Origin: Tepidanaerobacteraceae bacterium
GTDB lineage: Bacteria; Bacillota; Thermosediminibacteria; Thermosediminibacterales; Tepidanaerobacteraceae
Assembly (NCBI GenBank): GCA_024655905.1
Contig: JANLFP010000005.1
Location: 62,001 to 126,000 of the forward strand
Direction of reading: 5' to 3'
Length of the DNA: 64,000 nucleotides
Below, in pieces: positions 10,669 through 41,631 of this stretch. The position numbers and the translations under genes were made by a program. The notes beneath the pieces are model-generated. The model had not been told where the DNA came from, searched no databases, and was given only the letters and a program-made list of their open reading frames with translations. Position 1 is the stretch's first letter. The number at the start of each line of letters is the position of its first letter.

Positions 10669-11454
10669 TCATCCACTTGTTCTTAATCTTGATTCCAATT
10701 CTTCTTTAATCATTTTTACCTCAAGAATTATTTTTCGGCTCCTTTCATATGGAGAAACTCCCAATCTATCGGCATGCATTATGTTCTCGTCATGAGACAT
10801 AAAGCCAAGCACCGGTATATCGCCGCATGAATCGAGAATAAAAGTTTCTTCCTCGGGGCTTTTTATTTTATTGCCTACTGCAAATATGTTTTTGATGCCA
10901 ATATCCCGGGCTAGCTTCTCTACAGCCTTCAACGTCTGAATGCTCCTCTTGCCCGGCTCCACCACCACCAAAAAGGCATCCACAGACTGGGCGGTGGCTC
11001 TTCCCAGGTGCTCTATGCCTGCTTCCATGTCGAGTATCAACGCCTCATTTGTCCTGAGTATGAGATGACTCATAAGCGCCTTCAAAAATGCATGTTCCGG
11101 GCAGATGCATCCCATGCCGCCTTCTTTTACCGTACCCATTACCAGAAGCGTCACATTGTTGTGGGTTACGCAGTATTTTTCAGGGATGTCGTCAACTCTG
11201 GGGTTCAGCTTGAACATCTGACCGATTGCTCCCGGCTTCGCTTCAGTCCTTTGGGCTATCAGGTCCTTCATATCTGAAAGCGGCACGATTTTTTCAGTTA
11301 TCTCCTCTGGAAACCCCAGTGCGGAAGCTAAATTGGAATCAGGGTCCGCATCCACAGCCAGCACTTTGTATCCGTCATCGGCATATGACCTGGCCAGAAC
11401 TCCTGCCAATGTGGTCTTCCCCACTCCGCCTTTACCGGTTACAGCAATCCTCAT
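10669..11454 (-). CDS. cooC: CO dehydrogenase maturation ATPase CooC
   Basis: 261-aa CooC ATPase with Walker A GKGGVGKTT at residues 7-15, ADPDSN, and the metal-binding CIC pair in GMGCICPEHAF. It inserts nickel into the C-cluster of CO dehydrogenase in characterised systems. It starts 19 nt after the acsA stop with GGATGTG before the ATG, so it is co-expressed with its client. Paralogous to the gene at 2375-3154, with which it shares the overall fold but only moderate sequence likeness. Confidence 0.93.
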   Translation of the reverse strand: MRIAVTGKGGVGKTTLAGVLARSYADDGYKVLAVDADPDSNLASALGFPEEITEKIVPLSDMKDLIAQRTEAKPGAIGQMFKLNPRVDDIPEKYCVTHNNVTLLVMGTVKEGGMGCICPEHAFLKALMSHLILRTNEALILDMEAGIEHLGRATAQSVDAFLVVVEPGKRSIQTLKAVEKLARDIGIKNIFAVGNKIKSPEEETFILDSCGDIPVLGFMSHDENIMHADRLGVSPYERSRKIILEVKMIKEELESRLRTSG

Positions 11455-11473: not shown

Positions 11474-13369
11474 TTATATGTCCAGTTGTCTCCTTTTTGC
11501 CTCTATATGATCAATAATCTTGCGGGCGGTCTGAACCGGATCGGATTCTATCTCAAATCTTCCTCCGTAAATGCTCTCCACATCGGATGTCAGATGCCTG
11601 GTAAGGTTTTCTGAACCCGTGATTTGCGGCGCCACTCCCAGCACCACATATATTCCCGAAGCCACTGCGTAAGTACCGATAGACAGCGCCTTTTCAGACA
11701 TCCACTCGGGAGCCGCCGCAGCCACGGGGAGGTCCTTAATATCAACATTCATATAATTTGCCATTATAGAAAGAAGGTGTAAAATCCTGCTTATGTCAAC
11801 ACAGGAGCCCATATGGAGCACCGGGGGGATATTCAACAACTCGCAGCAGGTGGCGAGGCCCTTTCCGCAAAGTTTTACGGCATCTTCGCTCATTAGGCCT
11901 GCTTTGATGCATGCATGGGCACCACATCCGGTGGTGACGACAAGCACATCGTTTTTAATCAGTTCTTTGGCAAGCACTACATGGCTTCTGTCATGCGGCA
12001 CCCTGTGGTTGTTGCACCCGACTATGGCTGCCGCTCCCCTGAGCACTCCCGACTTTATTGCGTCTACCAGCGGTTTCACGGTACCGGACGGATGGGCGAA
12101 AGTATTCGTAATACCATCCAGAGCCCGAATAATGGCCTCCAAGCTGTAACCTACTTTGCCTCTCGATTTTTCCTCCGGTATGAGCACATTGCCCGTTCTG
12201 TTCTTAAAGTTCATTATTGCTTCCATCACTATTTTTCTGGCGCATTCCACAGAATTCTTTTCGTCAAACTCCATATGAACGGCACCGGGAACCTTTGCCT
12301 TGGGAGATGTAGTAATGAGCTTAGTATGATAGCATCTTGCCACCTGCGACAGCGACGGCATAATGCACTGTACATCCACCACCATTGCTTCCACAGCTCC
12401 CGTCACAACAGCCAGCTCCTGCTGGAAGAAATTGCCTGCCATCGGTATACCGTGCCTCATAGCCACTTCATTCCCCGTGCAGCACATTCCCACAAGGTTT
12501 ATCCCCTGGGCTCCATGCTGCTTTGCCGCTTCAAGCAAATCGGGATCGTTTACCGCCAAAACCAGGGCTTCGGACAGAGTAGGCTCATGGCCGTGCACAA
12601 CTATGTTAACGCATTCTTTCTTCAAGACGCCTAGATTTGCTTCCACTTCATGGGGAACAGGAGTCCCAAACAATATGTCCGAAAGTTCGGTGCCGATCAT
12701 CGAACCTCCCCATCCATCGCTCAGCGCGGCCCGGACGGCAGCATTCATTATGTTCCTGTAATCCGCATCGCATCCCATATGCGTGGAATGAAGCACCTCG
12801 ACTATATCCCTATCAATGGCTCTGGGCGCAACATTCATGCCTTCCCATATTTCTTTCCGCTTTTGAGGAGCTCTTTCTACAAATCGCAGGTGGCCGAAGG
12901 GCTTCCCGAATTCTTTCAAGGCTTCCCCGGCAACTTTTGATGCCAGTTCTTCAGCGCTGCTGCCCTCGGTTTCAATTCCCCATTCTTTTGCCAGAGCCCG
13001 CAACTTTTTTTCATCCATTATCGGCGCTTTTTTCTCCGCTGCAAAAAGCAATGCTTCCGCTATATCCCTTCCGTGGTCGGAGTGTGCGGCGGAACCGGCT
13101 GCTATAGACCTTGCCAGATTCCTCGCCGCTATGGTGTCTTCAGTAGCGCCGCATATGCCCATTTTGGGGCCGTCCGGTGATACCTTGACTATACGGCAAG
13201 GCCCCATAGAACAATTGGTGCAGCAAACCCCCATTTCCCCGAAACCGCACTGGGGCTGCATGGCAAGAGCCCTGTCCCATACAGTTTCAATCCCGTCTCG
13301 CTTTGCTTTTTCTATAAGCACAGATGTTGCAGAATCGCATCCCGAACACATCAATTTTTCCTGTTGCAT
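11474..13369 (-). CDS. acsA: Anaerobic CO dehydrogenase catalytic subunit
   Basis: Ni-containing CO dehydrogenase (CooS/AcsA), 631 aa. The N-terminal cysteines MCSGCDSA and CGFGEMGVCCTNCSMGPCRI ligate the D- and B-clusters. C-cluster ligands are in the later blocks GCDADYRN, NLVGMCCTGNE, GCNNHRVP, TTGCGAHAC and MGSCVDISRI. Oxidises CO or reduces CO2 to supply the carbonyl carbon of acetyl-CoA. GGAGG precedes the ATG. It follows the ferredoxin gene by 22 nt. Whether it works with acetyl-CoA synthase or alone cannot be read from the window because acsB is not included. Confidence 0.96.
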   Translation of the reverse strand: MQQEKLMCSGCDSATSVLIEKAKRDGIETVWDRALAMQPQCGFGEMGVCCTNCSMGPCRIVKVSPDGPKMGICGATEDTIAARNLARSIAAGSAAHSDHGRDIAEALLFAAEKKAPIMDEKKLRALAKEWGIETEGSSAEELASKVAGEALKEFGKPFGHLRFVERAPQKRKEIWEGMNVAPRAIDRDIVEVLHSTHMGCDADYRNIMNAAVRAALSDGWGGSMIGTELSDILFGTPVPHEVEANLGVLKKECVNIVVHGHEPTLSEALVLAVNDPDLLEAAKQHGAQGINLVGMCCTGNEVAMRHGIPMAGNFFQQELAVVTGAVEAMVVDVQCIMPSLSQVARCYHTKLITTSPKAKVPGAVHMEFDEKNSVECARKIVMEAIMNFKNRTGNVLIPEEKSRGKVGYSLEAIIRALDGITNTFAHPSGTVKPLVDAIKSGVLRGAAAIVGCNNHRVPHDRSHVVLAKELIKNDVLVVTTGCGAHACIKAGLMSEDAVKLCGKGLATCCELLNIPPVLHMGSCVDISRILHLLSIMANYMNVDIKDLPVAAAAPEWMSEKALSIGTYAVASGIYVVLGVAPQITGSENLTRHLTSDVESIYGGRFEIESDPVQTARKIIDHIEAKRRQLDI

Positions 13370-13391: not shown

Positions 13392-13808
13392 CTATACCGC
13401 CTTTATCTTCAAGGCTTTCGTAGGACAAGCTTTAGCGCATAAGGGTTCGTCGGAGTCAGCGCACCTGTCGCACACGGTGGGAAACGGCCCCAGAACTATT
13501 GCTCCGAACGGGCACGCTTCCTCGCAAATACCGCAGCCCGTGCATGTGAAACGATTTACTCTGACAGTACCGTTTTCATCTTTTGCGAGGGAATTTGTCG
13601 GGCAACTGGCAATACATTTGGGATTTTTGCACAACTTGCACTGCTCCAACTTGATTTTCCCGCTGACTTTCTTAATTCTTATTCTGGCGACCCTCTTTTC
13701 CTTTATGGCGCCGGTCAGGTTCTTGGCCTTTGAATGGGCGGCGGCACATGCCAGCTCACAGGTTTTGCATCCAAGGCATAAATCTTTATCAAAAGAAATA
13801 TTTACCAT
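13392..13808 (-). CDS. Polyferredoxin-type 4Fe-4S protein (CooF-like)
   Basis: 138-aa iron-sulfur protein of the CooF/HycB/DMSO-reductase-B type. Four cysteine sets are visible: CLGCKTCELAC, CKLCKNPKCIASCP, CTGCGICEEACPFGAI and CDRCADSDEPLCAKACP. It would pass electrons to or from the adjacent CO dehydrogenase. ATG at 13808 has AAGGGG 5-6 nt upstream; the extension to 13847 has no ribosome binding site. It is the first clear gene of the carbon-fixation operon, 400 nt downstream of the shared-palindrome promoter. Confidence 0.9.
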   Translation of the reverse strand: MVNISFDKDLCLGCKTCELACAAAHSKAKNLTGAIKEKRVARIRIKKVSGKIKLEQCKLCKNPKCIASCPTNSLAKDENGTVRVNRFTCTGCGICEEACPFGAIVLGPFPTVCDRCADSDEPLCAKACPTKALKIKAV

Positions 13809-14071
13809 AAATACCCCTTCTTTGCGATTAATTGTTATTCTTTTCACAATCTCACTTTTATAATACTACCGCGATATTATTTTGTCAATATGATAAAATT
13901 TTTTTGTATTTGTTTAATATTTCATTCTAAACTCGGAATATATCAACATCCATCCGAACCGCTTGATACTGTATAGTTTGCCTGATATTTTTTTATAGGC
14001 CCTGAGTTATATTGAGAGTTGCGCAGGGATGATTGTTAAATATTTAACTTATTAATTAATTCGTTAAAAAT

Positions 14072-14307: not shown

Positions 14308-16245
14308 CTAAACTTTTTTTAAAACCTCATCAATTACTTTTTCAACCGTGGCTTTTCCTATGAGAATGTCATCCACCATGGCACACGGGCTTTGCGCACA
14401 ATTTTCAAGGCAGAAAGTCGCCGATAATTCTATCCTATCTTTGAATCTTTCCTCATTTGCAATTTCTTTTAAAGCAGAAAAAAGGTCATAAGAGCCTGAG
14501 AGATAGCAGCATGTCCCCACGCACACCTTAACGCTAACCTTTCCGGCTTTTTTAATGTCTTCCGAAAAACATATCTCCCCACCGATTCTCTTGCGGTTTC
14601 TATAGGTGGTGTGAAGCAATTCATGCGCCTTTTCGCTGCCCGGGCTATACAGATGGTCGCGGTATAAATCCTTTATTATCGGATTTTCTGCCGGCGATTT
14701 AAGCTGCATGAGCTTCTCCGATCCCAAAAGCCCTTTTTTCCGGCTTTCTCTTGCGTCGTCGGTGTTCGGCTGAGGCTGGCCGCCGCCGCCTACACAGCCG
14801 CCAGAACACGCCATTACTTCCACAAGGTCATAGTATTCTTTCCCATCTCTTATATCTTCGAGAAGCTTTTTCGCATTGTTAAGGCCTGAAACGGCAGCGG
14901 CTTTAATTATTTTGCCATCGTATTCTATTTCGGCAGTCTTTATCTGCCCGCCTTCTCCATGAGTTCTAAAAACCGGTTCCCTGCCGAGTGTCCTTATTAC
15001 AGCCGTCGCCACACCTTCACCGCCGCCGAAAATTAGTCCTCCGCCAGTAGCAAAACCCAGCGGCATGTCGAAAGGCAGCTCTTCTACTTCATCGAAAATT
15101 ATTCCTGCTTGCCTTACCATCCTGGCCATTTCCTGGGTTGCGAGCACTGCATCCACATCCGGAATGCCGCCTTTGGAAAATTCTTCTCTTTGCGCTTCGG
15201 CTTTTTTAGCGGTGCAGGGCATTATTGATACCACAAAAATCTCTTCCGGGTCGATGCCAAGCCTTTTTGCATAAATGCCCTTCATTGCCGAGCCGAACAT
15301 CTGCTGCGGAGACTTGCAGCTGGAAAGATTATCTTTAAAATCCGGATAATTGAGCTCCACATATTTCACCCACGCCGGACAGCACGATGTGAATTGAGGC
15401 AGCCTTTTTTTGCCGGAAAGCCGCTCCAAAAATTCATGGGATTCTTCGACTGCCGTAAGGTCTGCTGCGAAACATGTATCGAAAACCATGTCAAACCCCA
15501 TTTTTTTCAGCGCCCCAATGATTTTGCCAGAAGTCACAGCGCCGGGTTTTAATCCGAATTCTTCTCCCAAAGAAACCCTTACCGCAGGAGCTATCTGGGC
15601 CACCACCGTTTTTGCCGGGTCATAAAGCGCATTCCATACTTTTTCCATGTGCGATGCAACCGTGATAGACCCCGTGGGGCAAACAGCGGCACACTGGCCG
15701 CAATCTACACAATTTACTTGAGAAATATTTTTGTTAAAAGGCGGCGTAACTCTGGCCTCACTGCCCCTGTAAGCAAATCCGATTACCCCTATGCCCTGGA
15801 TTTCCGGCGTCATATTGCCGTACACCCTGTCGTTTACTACCACCACAGGAGCCAGGCCGCATGCTCCCAGGCACGAAACGGTCTCCAGGGTGAAAAGCAT
15901 ATCATCCGTGGTCTTTGCACCATTTTTCAAATTCAGCGTTTCCCTCACGGTCGACAGTATTTTATCCGACTTTCTTACGTGACACGCAGTGCCGTCGCAA
16001 ACTTTTATTACATTTTTCCCTTTTGGTTCCAGTGAAAAATTTTCATAAAATGTAGCCACCCCAAATACTCTGGCAGGTGCGATTCCCATAGCAGTGGAAA
16101 TATAAGTAAGGATTTCTTCCGGCAAGTAACGATAAATCTCCTGCACTTCCTGGAGTATGCTTATAAGATTCGATGGTCTGTAATCATACTTTTCGAGAAT
16201 ATCATTCACTTTTTCAAAATTCCTGCATGAAATGCTTTCCGTCAA
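14308..16245 (-). CDS. Single-chain [FeFe]-hydrogenase with NuoE-like and C-terminal 2Fe-2S domains
   Basis: About 645 aa, four modules in one chain (numbering from the GTG at 16266). A NuoE/HydC-like thioredoxin-fold 2Fe-2S domain spans about 15-165 (Cys 90, 95, 132, 136). One 4Fe-4S site CVDCGQCAAVCP is at 186-197. The H-cluster domain covers about 215-560 with TSCCPAW, MPCTAKKAE and MACSGGCVGGGGQP, plus the small-subunit-like tail. A second thioredoxin-like 2Fe-2S domain is at 575-650 (CVGTCC, CLENC). Usually NuoE/HydC is a separate subunit; no NuoF-like flavoprotein gene is adjacent. The start is probably TTG at 16245, since AAGGAGG sits 8 nt before it, inside the GTG-initiated frame. Cytoplasmic; likely exchanges electrons with ferredoxin and perhaps a flavoprotein. 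Confidence 0.88.
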   Translation of the reverse strand: MTESISCRNFEKVNDILEKYDYRPSNLISILQEVQEIYRYLPEEILTYISTAMGIAPARVFGVATFYENFSLEPKGKNVIKVCDGTACHVRKSDKILSTVRETLNLKNGAKTTDDMLFTLETVSCLGACGLAPVVVVNDRVYGNMTPEIQGIGVIGFAYRGSEARVTPPFNKNISQVNCVDCGQCAAVCPTGSITVASHMEKVWNALYDPAKTVVAQIAPAVRVSLGEEFGLKPGAVTSGKIIGALKKMGFDMVFDTCFAADLTAVEESHEFLERLSGKKRLPQFTSCCPAWVKYVELNYPDFKDNLSSCKSPQQMFGSAMKGIYAKRLGIDPEEIFVVSIMPCTAKKAEAQREEFSKGGIPDVDAVLATQEMARMVRQAGIIFDEVEELPFDMPLGFATGGGLIFGGGEGVATAVIRTLGREPVFRTHGEGGQIKTAEIEYDGKIIKAAAVSGLNNAKKLLEDIRDGKEYYDLVEVMACSGGCVGGGGQPQPNTDDARESRKKGLLGSEKLMQLKSPAENPIIKDLYRDHLYSPGSEKAHELLHTTYRNRKRIGGEICFSEDIKKAGKVSVKVCVGTCCYLSGSYDLFSALKEIANEERFKDRIELSATFCLENCAQSPCAMVDDILIGKATVEKVIDEVLKKV

Positions 16246-16441
16246 CTTTAAAACCTCCTTCGCCACAACACCTTTAAGAAGCCGAAAATCAAGTTCGTTA
16301 TTTTTTTCACAAATATGAGTAAAAAATAAAGGTTGTTAAAAAAATATCAATAAGTATCCTTCAGGTTATCTGCCTCCCTGTTGCTGATTAAAATTATATA
16401 AGGAGATTTTCTCCTTTTTTATAAGAGCGTCATAATAATAA
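16246..16441 (-). other. Hydrogenase leader, 3' part
   Basis: Between structured element A and the TTG start. It contains an AAGGAG/CTCCTT hairpin near 16400-16418, followed on the plus strand by a run of T and on the minus strand by TATATAATTTTAAT. The rest is AT-rich with no open frame of note. Confidence 0.4.
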
Positions 16442-16520
16442 TGCCATGAAAGCACGAACGCCGCAGCGCCGAACCTTCATGGCCTTTTCAGGTATCTTCA
16501 TGATACCATTTATTCATGCA
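16442..16520 (-). promoter_or_regulatory. Structured leader element A (riboswitch-like), upstream of hydrogenase
   Basis: Minus-strand RNA: hairpin GGTATC-loop-GATACC (16491-16507), then an 8-bp stem GCCATGAA/TTCATGGC (16443-16450 with 16476-16483) enclosing conserved GGT and GTGC internal-loop bases and an inner stem GGCGC/GCGTT that needs G-U pairs. Element B at 21541-21618 has the same plan and order, with different bases in the stems. It starts about 10 nt into a transcript from the perfect promoter at 16538-16566. Ligand unknown; I do not recognise the class. Confidence 0.65.
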
Positions 16521-16537: not shown

Positions 16538-16566
16538 ATTATATTAGAATGTGAAACCTTTGTCAA
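16538..16566 (-). promoter_or_regulatory. Sigma-A promoter of the hydrogenase leader
   Basis: TTGACA (16561-16566), 17-nt spacer, TATAAT (16538-16543), reading on the minus strand. It gives a leader of about 285 nt before the hydrogenase start, starting just before element A. Confidence 0.85.
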
Positions 16567-16590: not shown

Positions 16591-17700
16591 TCATGGCAGC
16601 GTCAGCTTTCCAAATCCTCCGAAGTCTTTTGCCATCTGTTCATACATGGGTTTGCCGAGCAGCGTTTCATAAATTTCATCGGCTTTCTTCTCGGGGTCAA
16701 CATCCTTGAACTCTTCGGGATATATCACTTTACCCAGATAGTATGCGTCAGCCATGGCAGTGTCGATATTTGTGTGGTAATAGTTATAAGGCAGCTGTGC
16801 ATACACTTTGCCTTTTTTGACAGCAGACAAAACTCTGTAAAATTCCTGATTTTTTTGATAATCCTGCTGCACCATTGCATATCCGCCTCTGTCGATAAAA
16901 ATTATGTCGGGGTCCCATTGAATCAATTTCTCCTTATCTATCATGATGGAACCCGTTTTGCCGGTCTCATCCACCACATTCCTGGCGTTTATAGCTTCGA
17001 ACAGAGAATACTTCCCCTGGGTGCTTTCTATTCCGTGCGTCCCCCTTGCGCCCAGGGCGCCTATATAAACGGATGGCTTTTCATTTTCCGGAATATCTTT
17101 GGTTCGGCCCTCGAGGTCTTGCTTGCATTTTTCCATATAGGCTGCCAGTTCCTCTGCCCTATCATCCCGCCCCATTATTTTGCCTATCAGTTTCAAAGAA
17201 GCATAAACATCCGGATCAAAAGTGGACACCTTTCCATAACTGAGGGCCACAACCGGTATGCCGGTTTTTTCCTGCAGAGCATCTACAGAAGCCTTTTCTG
17301 AAGTATACATGCTGAAAATAACGTCAGGCTTCACAGCCAGTATTTTCTCCGGATCGGGAGCGTTGTTGGGGCCGCCCGGGCCGATGACTGGCAAATCTGC
17401 CAGCGAAGGATTCGCCAGGATATACGGCCTGCCTATGGGATTATCCTTTTCAAGCTGTTCCACTCCCGCTACTTTGCTCGCGCCGTTTATATAACAGTAA
17501 AGCCTCAAGGCACCCGGCCCAACAGCCACTACCCGTTCTACGGGCAATGTTACGGAAACTTTTCTCCCCACCATATCAGTAACAGTAATCTTTTCTGAAG
17601 CATTCTGCTGCTTCTGTACACTGCCGGAGCCGCAGCCGCTCAACAGAAAGGCAGATATGAGCAGCACTAAGAGTAATAAAATGAAATTTTTCTTTCGCAC
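16591..17700 (-). CDS. ABC transporter substrate-binding lipoprotein (FecB/BtuF type)
   Basis: 369-aa cluster-A substrate-binding protein with a signal peptide and lipobox LLSGC (Cys 22), so anchored outside the membrane. The TroA/BtuF-like body includes ITVTDMVGRKV, VPVVALSYG-like and IIFIDRGG segments. Family members bind ferric siderophores, corrinoids or other metal complexes. Start is GTG at 17700 with GGAGG 9 nt upstream. It ends a unit with ATPase, permease and FmdE genes downstream of cbiM, which favours a metal or corrinoid substrate over a siderophore, but the sequence does not decide this. Confidence 0.85.
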   Translation of the reverse strand: MRKKNFILLLLVLLISAFLLSGCGSGSVQKQQNASEKITVTDMVGRKVSVTLPVERVVAVGPGALRLYCYINGASKVAGVEQLEKDNPIGRPYILANPSLADLPVIGPGGPNNAPDPEKILAVKPDVIFSMYTSEKASVDALQEKTGIPVVALSYGKVSTFDPDVYASLKLIGKIMGRDDRAEELAAYMEKCKQDLEGRTKDIPENEKPSVYIGALGARGTHGIESTQGKYSLFEAINARNVVDETGKTGSIMIDKEKLIQWDPDIIFIDRGGYAMVQQDYQKNQEFYRVLSAVKKGKVYAQLPYNYYHTNIDTAMADAYYLGKVIYPEEFKDVDPEKKADEIYETLLGKPMYEQMAKDFGGFGKLTLP

Positions 17701-17778
17701 AATTCATAACCTCCATAATTCATATTATTACAAGGCATATGCCGAATTTCCCGTTTCCTCGAACATCGAAGCCTAAAT

Positions 17779-18531
17779 TTAAATCGGTAAGACCACGGGT
17801 ATGTTGTTGAATTTTTCGACTGCTACCCGAATGGAATATACGCTCTCGATGTTTTCAGGAGTAATTATTTCTACGCCGCCGGCTTCAAATATTGTGCCAT
17901 TCTTAAGAAAGATGAATTTATCCGCAAAGCGGATGGCAAGATTTATGTCGTGCATGGTTACGATGGCGGCAATCTGCTGGCTTTTCACCACTTTCTTTAT
18001 GATATCGATGACTTCGACCTGATTTTTCAAATCAAGGTTGCTGGTGGGCTCATCCAGCAGGAGAATATTCGGCTCCTGAGCCAGGGCCCGAGCTATAACC
18101 ACCTTTTGCAGCTCCCCTCCGCTCAGTTCATCCAGATACCTGAGGGAATAATCCTCCAAGTCCAGCAATTTCAAGGTCCTGCGTGTTATTTCCATGTCTT
18201 TCGGGCTGGCATCCCATTTAATATAGGGCTTCCTGCCGAGCAGCACCGCATCGAATACAGTAAGTCTTGCGCTTTCGTGCTTCTGTGCCACATAACCCAC
18301 TTTCTGCGCCAGTTCATTGCGGCTTAGCTTAAATATCTCATCTTCCTGAATGTATACCGCCCCCGATTGCGGTTTTAAGATTCGGTTGATGCATTTTAAA
18401 AGGGTGGATTTTCCAACGCCGTTGGTGCCCAGTATCGCAAGGCAATCCCCTTTTTCCACGGAAAAATCAATATCCTGAAACACCCGGCGGCCCGGATATT
18501 TGAATTTCAATCCGTTCACCGATAAAATCAT
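17779..18531 (-). CDS. ABC transporter ATPase (FecE/BtuD type)
   Basis: 250-aa ABC ATPase with Walker A GTNGVGKST, the signature LSGGELQKV, Walker B ILLLDEPTS and the switch His in VTMHDINLA. It energises the permease whose 3' end overlaps its start by 4 bp, so the two are translationally coupled. Same unit as the binding protein at 16591-17700. Substrate as for that protein: corrinoid, iron complex or another metal chelate. Confidence 0.92.
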   Translation of the reverse strand: MILSVNGLKFKYPGRRVFQDIDFSVEKGDCLAILGTNGVGKSTLLKCINRILKPQSGAVYIQEDEIFKLSRNELAQKVGYVAQKHESARLTVFDAVLLGRKPYIKWDASPKDMEITRRTLKLLDLEDYSLRYLDELSGGELQKVVIARALAQEPNILLLDEPTSNLDLKNQVEVIDIIKKVVKSQQIAAIVTMHDINLAIRFADKFIFLKNGTIFEAGGVEIITPENIESVYSIRVAVEKFNNIPVVLPI

Positions 18532-19613
18532 CGCTTTTGATACCCCCTTGCCAGCAGATACAAAAACAGCGGCGCTCCCAGAAAGGAGGTGATGGCCCCT
18601 ACGGGCAGCACTACAGGCGCTATGACTGTCCTGGCCAGGGTATCGGAGGAAAGTAGCAGCAGTGCTCCCATTAACGCCGATCCCGGAATAAGAAACCTAT
18701 GGTCCGAACCTATTATCCTCCTGATTATTTGTGGCCCCACCAGACCAACGAATCCGATGATTCCAAGGAAAGATACGCTGACAGCGGTTATCAGCGAAGA
18801 AATAAACATGCCCTCAAGCCGTACTCTGGCCACATTTACTCCAAGGCCCCTGGCGCTTTCCTCGCCGGTGTCCAGAGCGTTGTAGTCCCACCTTTTGAAC
18901 ATAAAGTAGGCAATCGAAAGAATAACCAGGAATGCCATTATGGCGACTTCCTTCCAAGAGGCTCTTCCCAAATCGCCGAATGTCCAGAATACCACCGCCG
19001 CCACCTGCACATCCTGGGCAAAATACTGAATGAGTATGGTAGCCGCAGAAAAAAGCGAGCCAATCGCAACTCCTGCCAGCACCATTGCCTCCGGCGAAAA
19101 GCCGCGCAGCCTGGCCAAAAGTATAATAATCAGGGTGCCCACCATAGCCCACATAAAAGCCGAAGCTGTTACAGCGTAAGGGTTGTTTATAATTACCGCA
19201 TCGGCACTGGAACTCTGAATGCTTCCAGCTCCGAATACAATAATCGCAATATTTGCCCCAAACGCGGCAGCGTTGGATATGCCCAGGGTTGAGGGAGACG
19301 CCAAAGGATTTCTCAGATTGTTTTGCATCACGCATCCTGCTGCGGAAAGGCCAGAGCCTGCGATAATGCCAGCAAGAACCCTAGGCAATCGGATATTCCA
19401 GATAACCACATCAAAAATGCCGCTTCCCCGCCCCAGCAGTGTCATAAAAACCTGATACGGGCTTACGTCCATGGAACCGGCATTAATAGCAATTACCGAT
19501 AGAGCCGCCGTCATCAATGCCAGAAGTAAAATAACAAATTTCTTCCTGCCCGTATACTGTTGATATAATGCTGTCAGATGTGAATTTGCGATGGCTGAGA
19601 CTTCCTGTTTCAC
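18528..19613 (-). CDS. ABC transporter permease (FecCD/BtuC type)
   Basis: 361-aa integral membrane protein of the FecCD family with about nine to ten hydrophobic spans. Typical blocks are RLPRVLAGIIAGSGLSAAGCVMQNNLRNPLA, LGLARGLGV-like near the middle and GLVGPQIIRRIIGSDHR before the last helices. Probable start is GTG at 19613 with AAGGA about 10 nt upstream. It overlaps the ATPase gene. Downstream of the FmdE/methyltransferase-remnant pair by about 60 nt. Confidence 0.92.
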   Translation of the reverse strand: MKQEVSAIANSHLTALYQQYTGRKKFVILLLALMTAALSVIAINAGSMDVSPYQVFMTLLGRGSGIFDVVIWNIRLPRVLAGIIAGSGLSAAGCVMQNNLRNPLASPSTLGISNAAAFGANIAIIVFGAGSIQSSSADAVIINNPYAVTASAFMWAMVGTLIIILLARLRGFSPEAMVLAGVAIGSLFSAATILIQYFAQDVQVAAVVFWTFGDLGRASWKEVAIMAFLVILSIAYFMFKRWDYNALDTGEESARGLGVNVARVRLEGMFISSLITAVSVSFLGIIGFVGLVGPQIIRRIIGSDHRFLIPGSALMGALLLLSSDTLARTVIAPVVLPVGAITSFLGAPLFLYLLARGYQKR

Positions 19614-19672: not shown

Positions 19673-19972
19673 TTATATCCACGCAAATTTCATTTTCACT
19701 TTCTGTTTTATTGACCCATCTTCGTCCAGAGTTTTTAAGTAATTTTCAATAAATTCTTTTTGAGCTTTCGAAGGTCCGTCCGGTATGGGCAAATTCTTTG
19801 CGAGCATCCCCTTTTCAGTCAGCACCGCTATGAGTTTGCCTACGCGCTCTGCTGCGCTTTTGCGATAGGCATTTGTGCTAAAATGGTCGGCCCTGCCGTC
19901 CCAAAACTCGCGGCTGGTATTCTGGCCGTTTTTCTTCGGCCTCCATAAAGCATCATAATATAAAACATCCAT
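19673..19972 (-). pseudogene. Remnant of a FmdE-associated SAM methyltransferase (internal deletion)
   Basis: 99 codons. The first half (SREFWDGRADHFSTN, AAERVGKLIAVLTEKGML) looks like the N-terminal helices of the class I methyltransferases found beside fmdE in Clostridia. The last part (KEFIENYLKTLDEDG to KFAWI) looks like their C-terminal tail. The SAM-binding core, with its GxGxG loop, is missing, and the frame stays open across the join. So it appears to be an in-frame deletion product. Its ATG is 1 nt after the fmdE stop (TAAGATG). A genuinely short protein is the alternative; the resemblance is from memory. Confidence 0.5.
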
Positions 19973-19973
19973 C

Positions 19974-20504
19974 TTACCAGCCCCTGCTGTACTCCTTGAA
20001 ACAATCCATGCACACTTTCTTTCCATCCTGAATCCTTGCCTTGTGTTCAGGAACTGCTTCGCCGCAAATTTCGCATACCACTGTTGAAAAGAGCCTTGCA
20101 GTTTCAGGCAATGAAAAATGCGGCTCCTTGAATTCAAAAATCTCCTCCAGCTCAGCGCTCAATAAATATTCCTGCCGCTTTTTTCTGTCCATTTCCTTTG
20201 AGGAAGGCTTCAATACTATTCTCAGGCCCTCGCCAGTCTTTCTCTTAAAGAATGTGAACGCCTGCTTTCCGGTAGGCCTGTATATTAGGTTGCCTTTGCC
20301 CAGGGTGCAGCCCATAAGCACCTGGACTGCATCCACGCCGCACGCGTCATTTTCCGTAACGCATACGATTTCCTCGTCTTTGGAAAAGGTAATCCCCATT
20401 TTTTCTCTCGCTGCCTCCACAGCCCTGACGCCTATAGCGAGGCCCGGACACTCATGGCCGTGAAATTCGACAGCCTTCTTCCAATCGGCATTGCTGTTTT
20501 TCAT
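19974..20504 (-). CDS. FmdE family protein with C-terminal zinc finger
   Basis: 176-aa protein of the formylmethanofuran dehydrogenase subunit E family. The N-terminal core has FHGHECPGLAIGVRA, ENDACGVDAVQVLMGCTLGKGNL and FTFFKRKTG. The C-terminus adds a Cys4 finger VCEICGEAV and KVCMDCFKEY. Members are often linked with metal ABC transporters and molybdenum/tungsten enzymes; their exact role is unsettled. GGAGG precedes the ATG. It lies between a PDGLE/CbiM unit and a FecBCD transporter. Confidence 0.85.
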   Translation of the reverse strand: MKNSNADWKKAVEFHGHECPGLAIGVRAVEAAREKMGITFSKDEEIVCVTENDACGVDAVQVLMGCTLGKGNLIYRPTGKQAFTFFKRKTGEGLRIVLKPSSKEMDRKKRQEYLLSAELEEIFEFKEPHFSLPETARLFSTVVCEICGEAVPEHKARIQDGKKVCMDCFKEYSRGW

Positions 20505-20537: not shown

Positions 20538-20825
20538 TCAATCCCTGGCTTCACCGCGTTTAAGAGCCTTCGCCGCCAAAAATACTGCAGCAAATGCAAC
20601 CGATGTTCCGATGATTCCAGCCGTTGCGGTAGATATCTTTTCGTTGGAAATGCCCGGAACTGTATAATCGGGCATCGGCGAAAAAGCCAGCGCACTCGTT
20701 GCTTTTTCGGCAAAAGAGAGGTTTTCCGCCACTCTTTCAAGCCCGTCGGGATGCGGAGATGCAAATGGCGAAAGAATAAACGCCACAAGAAGTGATAAAA
20801 AAAGGATTGTTTTCCAGCTCTTCAT
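20538..20825 (-). CDS. PDGLE-domain (CbiN-like) small membrane protein
   Basis: 95 aa: N-terminal hydrophobic segment, then HPDGLERVAENL (the PDGLE motif) and a second hydrophobic helix near 70-90. PDGLE proteins replace or accompany CbiN as the small component of cobalt/nickel ECF transporters. Its ATG overlaps the cbiM stop (ATGA), and GGAGGAGG lies upstream, so it is coupled to cbiM. Confidence 0.88.
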   Translation of the reverse strand: MKSWKTILFLSLLVAFILSPFASPHPDGLERVAENLSFAEKATSALAFSPMPDYTVPGISNEKISTATAGIIGTSVAFAAVFLAAKALKRGEARD

Positions 20826-21505
20826 TTTGCGCTTCCTCCTCCATTCATGCTTTCTGCATCAGTTGAGAAGTACCTCGAGCCTTCATCCGGCTTTATGTTC
20901 AGCACCTTTCCTATATACGCCACCGCCGCCACGGTTATCAGCCCTTCTCCCACGCCTATGAGCGCATGTATGGACACCATGGGCGCCAGCACCGCCTTCA
21001 GGGCGACCGTGCCGGATAATGCCAGTTCAAGGCTGGCAAATACCGAAGCCGTTACAACAGAAAGCCACGATGCTGCAAATATTGCCACCGTATCCACCCC
21101 TGAAAAATGAAAATTTCTTTTCATCGCCGCAATTATGAAATATGCTACCATCGGCGCCACAACAGCCATGTTTAAAATATTGGCTCCAAGCGCCAGAAGC
21201 CCTCCATCCTGGAAGAATATGCATTGAACTATAAGCACGGTAGTTATAACGAGCCCGGCGCTGTAAGGCCCCATCAGCGCCGTGGCCAGCGCAGCCCCCA
21301 GGAGGTGGCCCGAAGTCCCCGCCATAATGGGAAAGTTCACCATCTGGGCGGCAAATATGAAGGCCGCCATCACTCCCATCACAGGGATATCTCTGTCCCC
21401 GAGTATTTTTCTGGTTTTTTCCACATCCTTTTTGATTGCGTAAGCGCTAATTGCCGCAGTGGTTGCAATGGTTTTTACATCCAAAAAACCGTCGGGAATG
21501 TGCAT
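20822..21505 (-). CDS. cbiM: Cobalt/nickel ECF transporter substrate-binding subunit CbiM
   Basis: 227-aa membrane protein with the diagnostic N-terminus MHIPDGF, whose amine and His chelate the metal. Six to seven hydrophobic spans follow, with the AGTSGHLLGAAL signature. Imports cobalt (for corrinoids) or nickel. ATG at 21505 has AAAGGG 8 nt upstream; the in-frame extension to 21595 runs through structured element B and is not real. Its CbiQ and CbiO partners are at the end of the preceding transcription unit, so the transporter is split over two units. Confidence 0.93.
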   Translation of the reverse strand: MHIPDGFLDVKTIATTAAISAYAIKKDVEKTRKILGDRDIPVMGVMAAFIFAAQMVNFPIMAGTSGHLLGAALATALMGPYSAGLVITTVLIVQCIFFQDGGLLALGANILNMAVVAPMVAYFIIAAMKRNFHFSGVDTVAIFAASWLSVVTASVFASLELALSGTVALKAVLAPMVSIHALIGVGEGLITVAAVAYIGKVLNIKPDEGSRYFSTDAESMNGGGSAK

Positions 21506-21540
21506 AAAATTCACCCTTTCATATAATTTTTGAAAACAAA

Positions 21541-21618
21541 AGGCCATGAAAGCACAGGCGACTTGCGCCAGACCTTCATGGCCTATCCCGGGCATCTTCT
21601 TGAGCCCTTATCCGCATC
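21541..21618 (-). promoter_or_regulatory. Structured leader element B (riboswitch-like), upstream of cbiM
   Basis: Minus-strand RNA with hairpin GGGC-TCAAGAAGAT-GCCC (21590-21607), then a 9-bp stem GGCCATGAA/TTCATGGCC (21542-21550 with 21575-21583), the same internal bases GGT and GTGC as element A, and an inner stem GGCG/CGCC. The long stem is followed by TTTTGTTTT, so here it could also end transcription. Loop TCANGAAGAT is shared with A while the stem bases around it differ. Confidence 0.65.
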
Positions 21619-21655: not shown

Positions 21656-21684
21656 AGTATATTATATCGTTAATCATTTGTCAA
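21656..21684 (-). promoter_or_regulatory. Sigma-A promoter of the cbiM leader
   Basis: TTGACA (21679-21684), 17-nt spacer, TATACT (21656-21661) on the minus strand. The leader to the cbiM ATG is about 145 nt and contains element B. Confidence 0.8.
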
Positions 21685-36931: not shown

Positions 36932-36953
36932 CAAAAAATCCCCTCAGCGGGGA
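36932..36953 (-). terminator. Riboswitch expression-platform terminator
   Basis: Minus strand TCCCC-GCTGA-GGGGA stem followed by TTTTTTGT, 13 nt after the riboswitch P1 helix. Closing of P1 by guanine would leave this hairpin free to form and stop transcription. Confidence 0.85.
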
Positions 36954-36965
36954 CAGCACGCACCC

Positions 36966-37036
36966 CCCTGTAGCCTGTGGTGTTTTACGGACACCTGGTA
37001 GAGACTTCCGGGCCATATCCCCGGAATTATACAGGG
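36966..37036 (-). promoter_or_regulatory. Guanine (purine) riboswitch
   Basis: Minus-strand RNA: P1 CCCTGTA/TACAGGG, P2 CCGGG-GATATGG-CCCGG, the junction AAGTCTCTACC, and P3 GGTGT-CCGTAAA-ACACC. The loops L2 GATATGG and L3 CCGTAAA are the classical kissing pair. The base before the 3' P1 strand is C, the guanine/hypoxanthine-specific identity. It precedes the NCS2 permease gene. Confidence 0.95.
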
Positions 37037-37064
37037 CTGTAGCATTTGTTTAAATCACGAAATT

Positions 37065-41475: not shown

Positions 41476-41550
41476 TGGTGGGCGCGGCAGGTTTCGAACC
41501 TGCGACCTCTTGAATGTGAGTCAAGCGCTCTCCCGCTGAGCTACGTGCCC
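41476..41550 (-). tRNA. tRNA-Val (CAC)
   Basis: Full cloverleaf on the minus strand: acceptor GGGCACG/CGCGCCC (one A-C mismatch at the fifth pair), D arm GCTC, anticodon stem CTTGA/TCAAG with loop CTCACAT (anticodon CAC, reads GUG), T arm GCAGG-TTTCGAA-CCTGC, encoded CCA. Confidence 0.95.
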
Positions 41551-41555
41551 ATATT

Positions 41556-41631
41556 TGGTGGACGTGAGGGGATTCGAACCCCTGACCCTCTGATTGCGAA
41601 CCAGATGCTCTCCCAGCTGAGCCACACGCCC
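41556..41631 (-). tRNA. tRNA-Ala (CGC)
   Basis: Cloverleaf on the minus strand: acceptor GGGCGTG/CACGTCC with the G3-U70 pair that defines alanine tRNA, anticodon loop TTCGCAA (anticodon CGC), T arm AGGGG-TTCGAAT-CCCCT, encoded CCA. It is 5 nt from tRNA-Val. Confidence 0.95.

Follow-up and report, generated by a model that had tools for sequence, protein, structure and literature searches.

A putative twin-hairpin antitermination leader precedes nickel-related genes across Bacillota

The window analysed here, a 64,000-nucleotide stretch of a Tepidanaerobacteraceae genome, carries two leader elements, A and B, that probably belong to a widespread set of antitermination leaders for nickel (possibly nickel/cobalt) genes, the most likely factor being the product of a linked DUF3842-cooT gene pair. 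Comparison of sequences across genomes points to two competing structures within each element, to the set of genes that the elements precede, to the breadth of their distribution, and to a lack of ANTAR proteins and NikR both in the window's genome and in the relatives closest to it that carry the element. Taken as a whole, the elements apparently form a large, undescribed class of bacterial RNA switches.

Results

Competing hairpins in elements A and B

Elements A (16442–16520) and B (21541–21618), both on the minus strand, were recognized in a preliminary description, which aligned them with each other and placed a promoter before each. The positions, the mutual alignment and the promoters, both close to ideal for the sigma-70 type, were all reproduced, and the parts of the two elements are as follows.

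16538–16566, minus strand: promoter of A, TTGACA-17-TATAAT, 12/12 match to consensus
16491–16507, minus strand: hairpin P1 of A, GGTATC-[ATGAA]-GATACC; the stem covaries across relatives
16472–16484, minus strand: hairpin P2 of A, the antiterminator form, GGCC-[ATGAA]-GGTT; P2 covariation in 85 distant elements
16443–16483, minus strand: terminator-form hairpin of A, GCCATGAAGG...CTTTCATGGC, mutually exclusive with P2
16431–16442, minus strand: terminator tail of A, ATTATTATT, a weak T-run
21656–21684, minus strand: promoter of B, TTGACA-17-TATACT, 11/12 match
21590–21607, minus strand: hairpin P1 of B, GGGC-TC-[AAGAA]-GA-T-GCCC, with one bulged T
21569–21585, minus strand: hairpin P2 of B, TAGGCC-[ATGAA]-GGTCTG
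21541–21584, minus strand: intrinsic terminator hairpin of B, AGGCCATGAAGG...CTTTCATGGCCT, mutually exclusive with P2
21533–21541, minus strand: terminator T-run of B, TTTTGTTTT

A T-run comes after the lower hairpin of both elements and gives it a terminator-like form; a G+C-rich hairpin with a T-run is clearly present at B, and is present with a weaker T-run at A. This part had earlier been described as an inner stem; the hairpin itself stands, but it is in fact an intrinsic terminator, the T-run after it having been overlooked. The 5′ strand of the terminator, GGCC-AUGAA-GGUY, is able to refold as a copy of hairpin 1, and because P2 is built from this very strand, P2 and the terminator cannot coexist. 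P2 of A is weak owing to its two G-U pairs. Both elements fold more stably than their dinucleotide shuffles (z −3.7 for A, z −3.0 for B), and the element pattern gave no site across 100 shuffles of the 64-kb window. The layout predicted for the class is thus P1, followed by a P2 that competes against an intrinsic terminator.

An extra small hairpin, AAGGAG-AAAA-CTCCTT with a T-rich tail (16400–16416, minus strand), lies between A and the hydrogenase start and is possibly a second attenuation site. A leader peptide (ATG-AAG-GT...) was rejected, as reading frames differ between copies.

Genes behind the two elements

The genes that follow A and B are listed below.

14308–16266, minus strand: NuoE-like domain fused to an [FeFe]-hydrogenase catalytic subunit (PF02906, PF01257), first gene after A
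13392–13847, minus strand: CooF-like 4Fe-4S ferredoxin, downstream of A (profile search)
11474–13369, minus strand: nickel carbon monoxide dehydrogenase (CODH; CooS), behind A (family from sequence inspection)
10669–11454, minus strand: CooC-like nickel-insertion ATPase, behind A (family from sequence inspection)
20822–21511, minus strand: cbiM, Ni/Co ECF transporter component, first gene after B (PF01891, 3.7e-57)
20538–20825, minus strand: PDGLE (CbiN-like) component (profile search)
19974–20504, minus strand: FmdE-family protein with a zinc ribbon; the family recurs among the element's targets at other loci
16591–19613, minus strand: genes between B and A for a metal-chelate type transporter (FecCD permease, ABC ATPase, periplasmic binding protein)

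The targets named in the preliminary description, an [FeFe]-hydrogenase after A and a cobalt/nickel transporter (CbiM) after B, agree with the profile matches. The genome holds a third copy, on contig C31, ahead of an ECF S-component gene (PF12822); a gene for a SAM-dependent methyltransferase comes next. Elsewhere in the window, a frame at 19673–20137 (minus strand) overlaps the FmdE gene and extends past its end in another register, as a possible frameshift or overlapping gene; a purine riboswitch (RF00167, 72.3 bits) occupies 36951–37054 (minus strand), and a tandem tRNA gene pair lies at 41479–41631 (minus strand).

Breadth and target genes

A covariance model made from the two sequences, the check that had been suggested, picked the element out in three related genomes, ahead of cbiM, of the NuoE/[FeFe]-hydrogenase gene and of an ECF S-component gene, and a wider covariance model found it in the sister family as well. 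Of the 398 Bacillota genomes searched, 75 gave a match to model R3 at E ≤ 0.01, some 4 being the chance expectation; matches that do not hold the core motif (G095, G289, G074 and others) are treated as false positives of the model. Copies of the element span about 23 family-level groups. Exact-pattern scans of public collections returned matches only in about the number expected by chance, in unrelated contexts.

Downstream transport genes encode CbiM, SBP_bac_5 (Nik-type), ZnuA-type and Fec-type (Peripla_BP_2) binding proteins, and permeases. FmdE, a CobN-like chelatase, CooT, DUF3842, [FeFe]-hydrogenase and SAM methyltransferases make up other targets, together with an HdrA-like protein in one genome (G254) and MvhD/FlpD-type proteins in two (G376 and G315). 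Judged by these annotations, the targets are mostly a nickel or nickel/cobalt gene set, and the loci of A and B show the like set, with cooF-cooS-cooC (CODH) behind A. The mobile repeat that had been raised as a counter-explanation was not what emerged: copies sit a median of 80 nt before a gene on the same strand, and recurrent gene types dominate downstream. The earlier assignment to a cis-regulatory RNA class is upheld by many homologues, by compensatory changes and by metal and hydrogenase targets.

A TrmO_N domain occurs in four targets, each a first gene and at four distant loci, and has no obvious link to nickel. One genome carries, within a few kb of each other, a NiCo riboswitch (L118, 9372–9444, minus strand) and a twin-hairpin element that precedes FmdE.

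Covariation of the competing structures

P1 and P2 each have a five-base loop on a closing C-G pair, the consensus being C-[ANGRA]-G; P1 also allows G as the first loop base, and ATGAA, ACGAA, ATGGA and AAGAA were all found. Among the variants of P2 are GGCC-AUGAA-GGUC, GACC-AUGAA-GGUC, AAAACC-AUGAA-GGUUUU and GCC-AUGAA-GGC, and a T-run follows the 3′ arm of the terminator in most copies from the related genomes and the sister family. Across 16 sequences, five of the six P1 pairs changed on both sides, and 91.6% of P1 cells are paired as compared with 72% in shuffles, a level that 0 of 500 shuffles reached; the terminator helix shows double changes at 8 of its 16 pairs (0/500 shuffles). Support for P2 is weaker in this set because the inner P2 pairs never vary.

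A stronger test of P2 drew on 85 distinct distant matches of R3, a model built without P2 pairs. The fourth P2 pair forms in 74 of these copies against 56.3 expected (sd 2.4), and the fifth in 57 against 44.4 expected (sd 3.3); the competing terminator pair, which uses the same bases, is kept in 84 against 67.9 expected. The variable loop base, for its part, covaries with the terminator 3′ arm (58 U-A and 19 C-G among the 85). Sixty permutations of the loop were compared on the same DNA; many terminator-embedded hairpins arose from ANGRA and patterns that overlap it but from no others (88, against a median of 0 for the rest). An explicit scanner returned 153 matches in 716 kb, a figure that includes some P1 hairpins that also satisfy the pattern, and 0 in the reversed sequence. 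P1 of the same loop class, called by strict criteria, was present within about 90 nt upstream in 24 of the 85 distant copies (0.3 expected). The P1–P2 spacing is bimodal, at 4–7 or about 31–56 nt, with two copies at 71–73 nt. Taken together, pairing and covariation make the RNA switch itself a well-supported prediction.

At one locus (L124, 4960–5150, minus strand), two complete twin-hairpin/terminator elements stand in tandem before a CobN-like gene, one of the two elements having an ACGGA loop.

DUF3842 and CooT as the candidate factor

When genes in the neighbourhood of the elements were clustered, a 69-aa protein of the CooT family (PF10133; structure PDB 6fan) and DUF3842 stood out. CooT is present in 57 of the 75 genomes matched by R3 and in 60 of the 323 others (OR 13.9, p 6e-21, with shared ancestry ignored). 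Under a strict definition of the element, which uses sequence only and is satisfied in 58 of the 398 Bacillota genomes, DUF3842 occurs in 57/58 element genomes versus 36% of the others (123 genomes) and CooT in 50/58 versus 20%, shared ancestry again being ignored; FmdE, a target used as control, occurs in 48/58 versus 29% (OR 11.7). One element-bearing genome (G027) has neither DUF3842 nor CooT, and seven further element genomes have no CooT. Well-known control genomes, B. subtilis among them, gave no match to DUF3842. The element stands directly before cooT in five places (G146, G028 twice, G397 and G359) and before DUF3842 in five genomes (G062, G103, G254, G269 and G356). The window's genome has its own cooT-DUF3842 pair, next to acsB and about 6 kb to the left of the window.

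Rhodospirillum CooT forms a dimer and takes up one Ni (Kd 9 nM); its function is unsettled (PMC6006190). It is a Ni-binding homodimer whose gene is linked to the element and in places follows it; descriptions so far, however, make it an accessory protein of CODH, and the literature searched reports no regulatory RNA target for it. The same search returned no paper mentioning DUF3842. Part of the association of the two proteins with the element would follow from a common nickel lifestyle, and DUF3842 may do something else or merely share that lifestyle. We advance only tentatively, as something less than probable, the idea that DUF3842 and/or CooT represent a new family of RNA-binding, nickel-sensing antiterminators governing a Bacillota-wide nickel regulon through twin ANGRA-loop hairpins.

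A 110-aa protein with a WIEHN-SHEENF motif is encoded beside one cooT-DUF3842 pair (L178, 11786–12118, minus strand); its homologue has no Pfam match, and it recurs in the sister family.

A proposed model for antitermination

We infer that a protein acts here rather than direct sensing by the RNA, and the identity of that protein, the nickel signal and the direction of control are likewise parts of the proposal. By default, with nothing bound, the longer terminator hairpin would win and transcription would stop. A dimeric factor, most likely the product of the linked DUF3842-cooT gene pair, would hold the loops of P1 and P2, so that P2 would be kept, the terminator blocked and the downstream genes read. 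Since CooT is a Ni-binding homodimer, nickel status would decide RNA binding, and since most targets import nickel, the simplest logic would be that the nickel-free factor binds and thereby opens the uptake genes. The CODH behind A, the HdrA-like gene and the MvhD/FlpD-type genes do not fit this simple low-nickel-on rule. Element A, with its weak T-run and an operon that includes CODH, fits the mechanism least well.

Comparison with known RNA systems

Another RNA-binding protein, possibly a diverged ANTAR or a CsrA-like one, might carry out the antitermination, with CooT and DUF3842 merely members of the regulon; elements do precede cooT and DUF3842 in some genomes, as expected of targets, and we consider this reading possible but rather unlikely. 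ANTAR proteins act on a two-hairpin-plus-terminator layout (PMC3369931, PMC8934654). Their targets (those of EutV, NasR and AmiR) resemble the element in having two small like-looped hairpins, of which the latter shares sequence with the 5′ strand of an intrinsic terminator and is mutually exclusive with that terminator, in their start-of-operon position, and in an A as first loop base and a conserved G. ANTAR target loops are, however, hexaloops with A first and G fourth (PMC3369931, PMC8934654), whereas the element has the pentaloop C-[ANGRA]-G; the known targets concern ethanolamine and nitrogen rather than metals, and the P1–P2 spacing here extends to about 56 nt. In the EutV system, lengthening the linker by 20 nt abolishes antitermination (PMC8934654). 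No ANTAR domain (PF03861) was found in the window's genome (G000, 99.98% complete) or in G001, G005 and G009, and no NikR was found in these four genomes either. As two defining features of ANTAR targets fail, the element is classed here as a variant of two-hairpin antitermination and not as an ANTAR target; an ANTAR protein as the factor was rejected on its absence from the window's genome and the closest element-bearing relatives and on the differing loop.

CsrA needs GGA in the loop, and dimeric CsrA/RsmA bridges two hairpins with loose spacing. An ANGGA loop falls within ANGRA, and hairpin spacing is loose in the element too, but most loops here are GAA, including those of A and B (GGA occurs in 19 of the 85 distant P2 loops), and the output is a terminator switch. 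CsrA is found in nearly all these genomes, but as a single copy, irrespective of the elements and not linked to them; being single-copy and general, and with the loops mostly GAA, it was rejected as the specific factor.

Improbable, in our judgement, is a protein-free riboswitch in which the ANGRA loops bind a metal ion or a metal-linked metabolite and so stabilize P2 against the terminator. The RNA is compact, with conserved loops and metal-gene targets, as a riboswitch would be; its P1–P2 spacing is loose and bimodal, though, many copies have no P1 identified nearby, and neither a conserved linker nor a tertiary signature was seen, so that two protein-docking sites suit the element better than one aptamer. 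Twin-hairpin antitermination by a bound protein thus appears more likely than a classical metabolite riboswitch. The guanidine-II (mini-ykkC) riboswitch likewise has a tandem of two hairpins whose small loops, closed by C-G, are identical, and its paired loops bind guanidine. There the loop is ACGR, whereas the element has no Rfam match, variable spacing and other genes. The NiCo riboswitch (RF02683) likewise serves nickel/cobalt-related genes but is structurally unrelated, and its model gave no match at A or B. A covariance-model search of Rfam 15 yielded no family above gathering at either element, with only chance-level matches up to E=10, in keeping with the earlier description, which did not recognize the RNA as a cobalamin, NiCo, Moco, SAM, THF or purine one. 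A literature search found no paper describing the element class; most subscription papers lay outside its scope, and an earlier description elsewhere is therefore possible.

DNA operators, as inverted-repeat sites for a metal-responsive repressor such as NikR, would suit palindromic, promoter-proximal sites; they are highly improbable given half-sites that vary freely yet stay paired and retain G-U pairs, variable arm lengths and spacings, a terminator T-run after the hairpin, a constant strand relative to the gene, and the absence of NikR from the window's genome. That the elements are ordinary constitutive terminators, or a mobile palindromic repeat, and regulate nothing is barely credible. 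The lower hairpin is a terminator and copies within one genome resemble each other, but P2 covaries, the loop is shared, metal genes recur as targets, copies stand at operon starts and about 23 family-level groups carry them; the position and covariation data, as read from sequence, already contradict this reading.

Discussion

Acetogens and related gas-fermenting bacteria cannot do without nickel for their carbon monoxide dehydrogenase and [NiFe]-hydrogenase. Neither the window's genome nor the closest relatives that carry the element encode NikR, which leaves these genomes with no obvious regulator for nickel. The element defines a regulon and predicts new nickel transport genes, the predicted nickel genes comprising the ECF S-component with methyltransferase and FmdE, ZnuA-/Fec-type importers, and CobN-like chelatases. 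If true, antitermination by the DUF3842-cooT product would give a role to DUF3842 and to CooT, a CODH accessory protein whose function is unclear.
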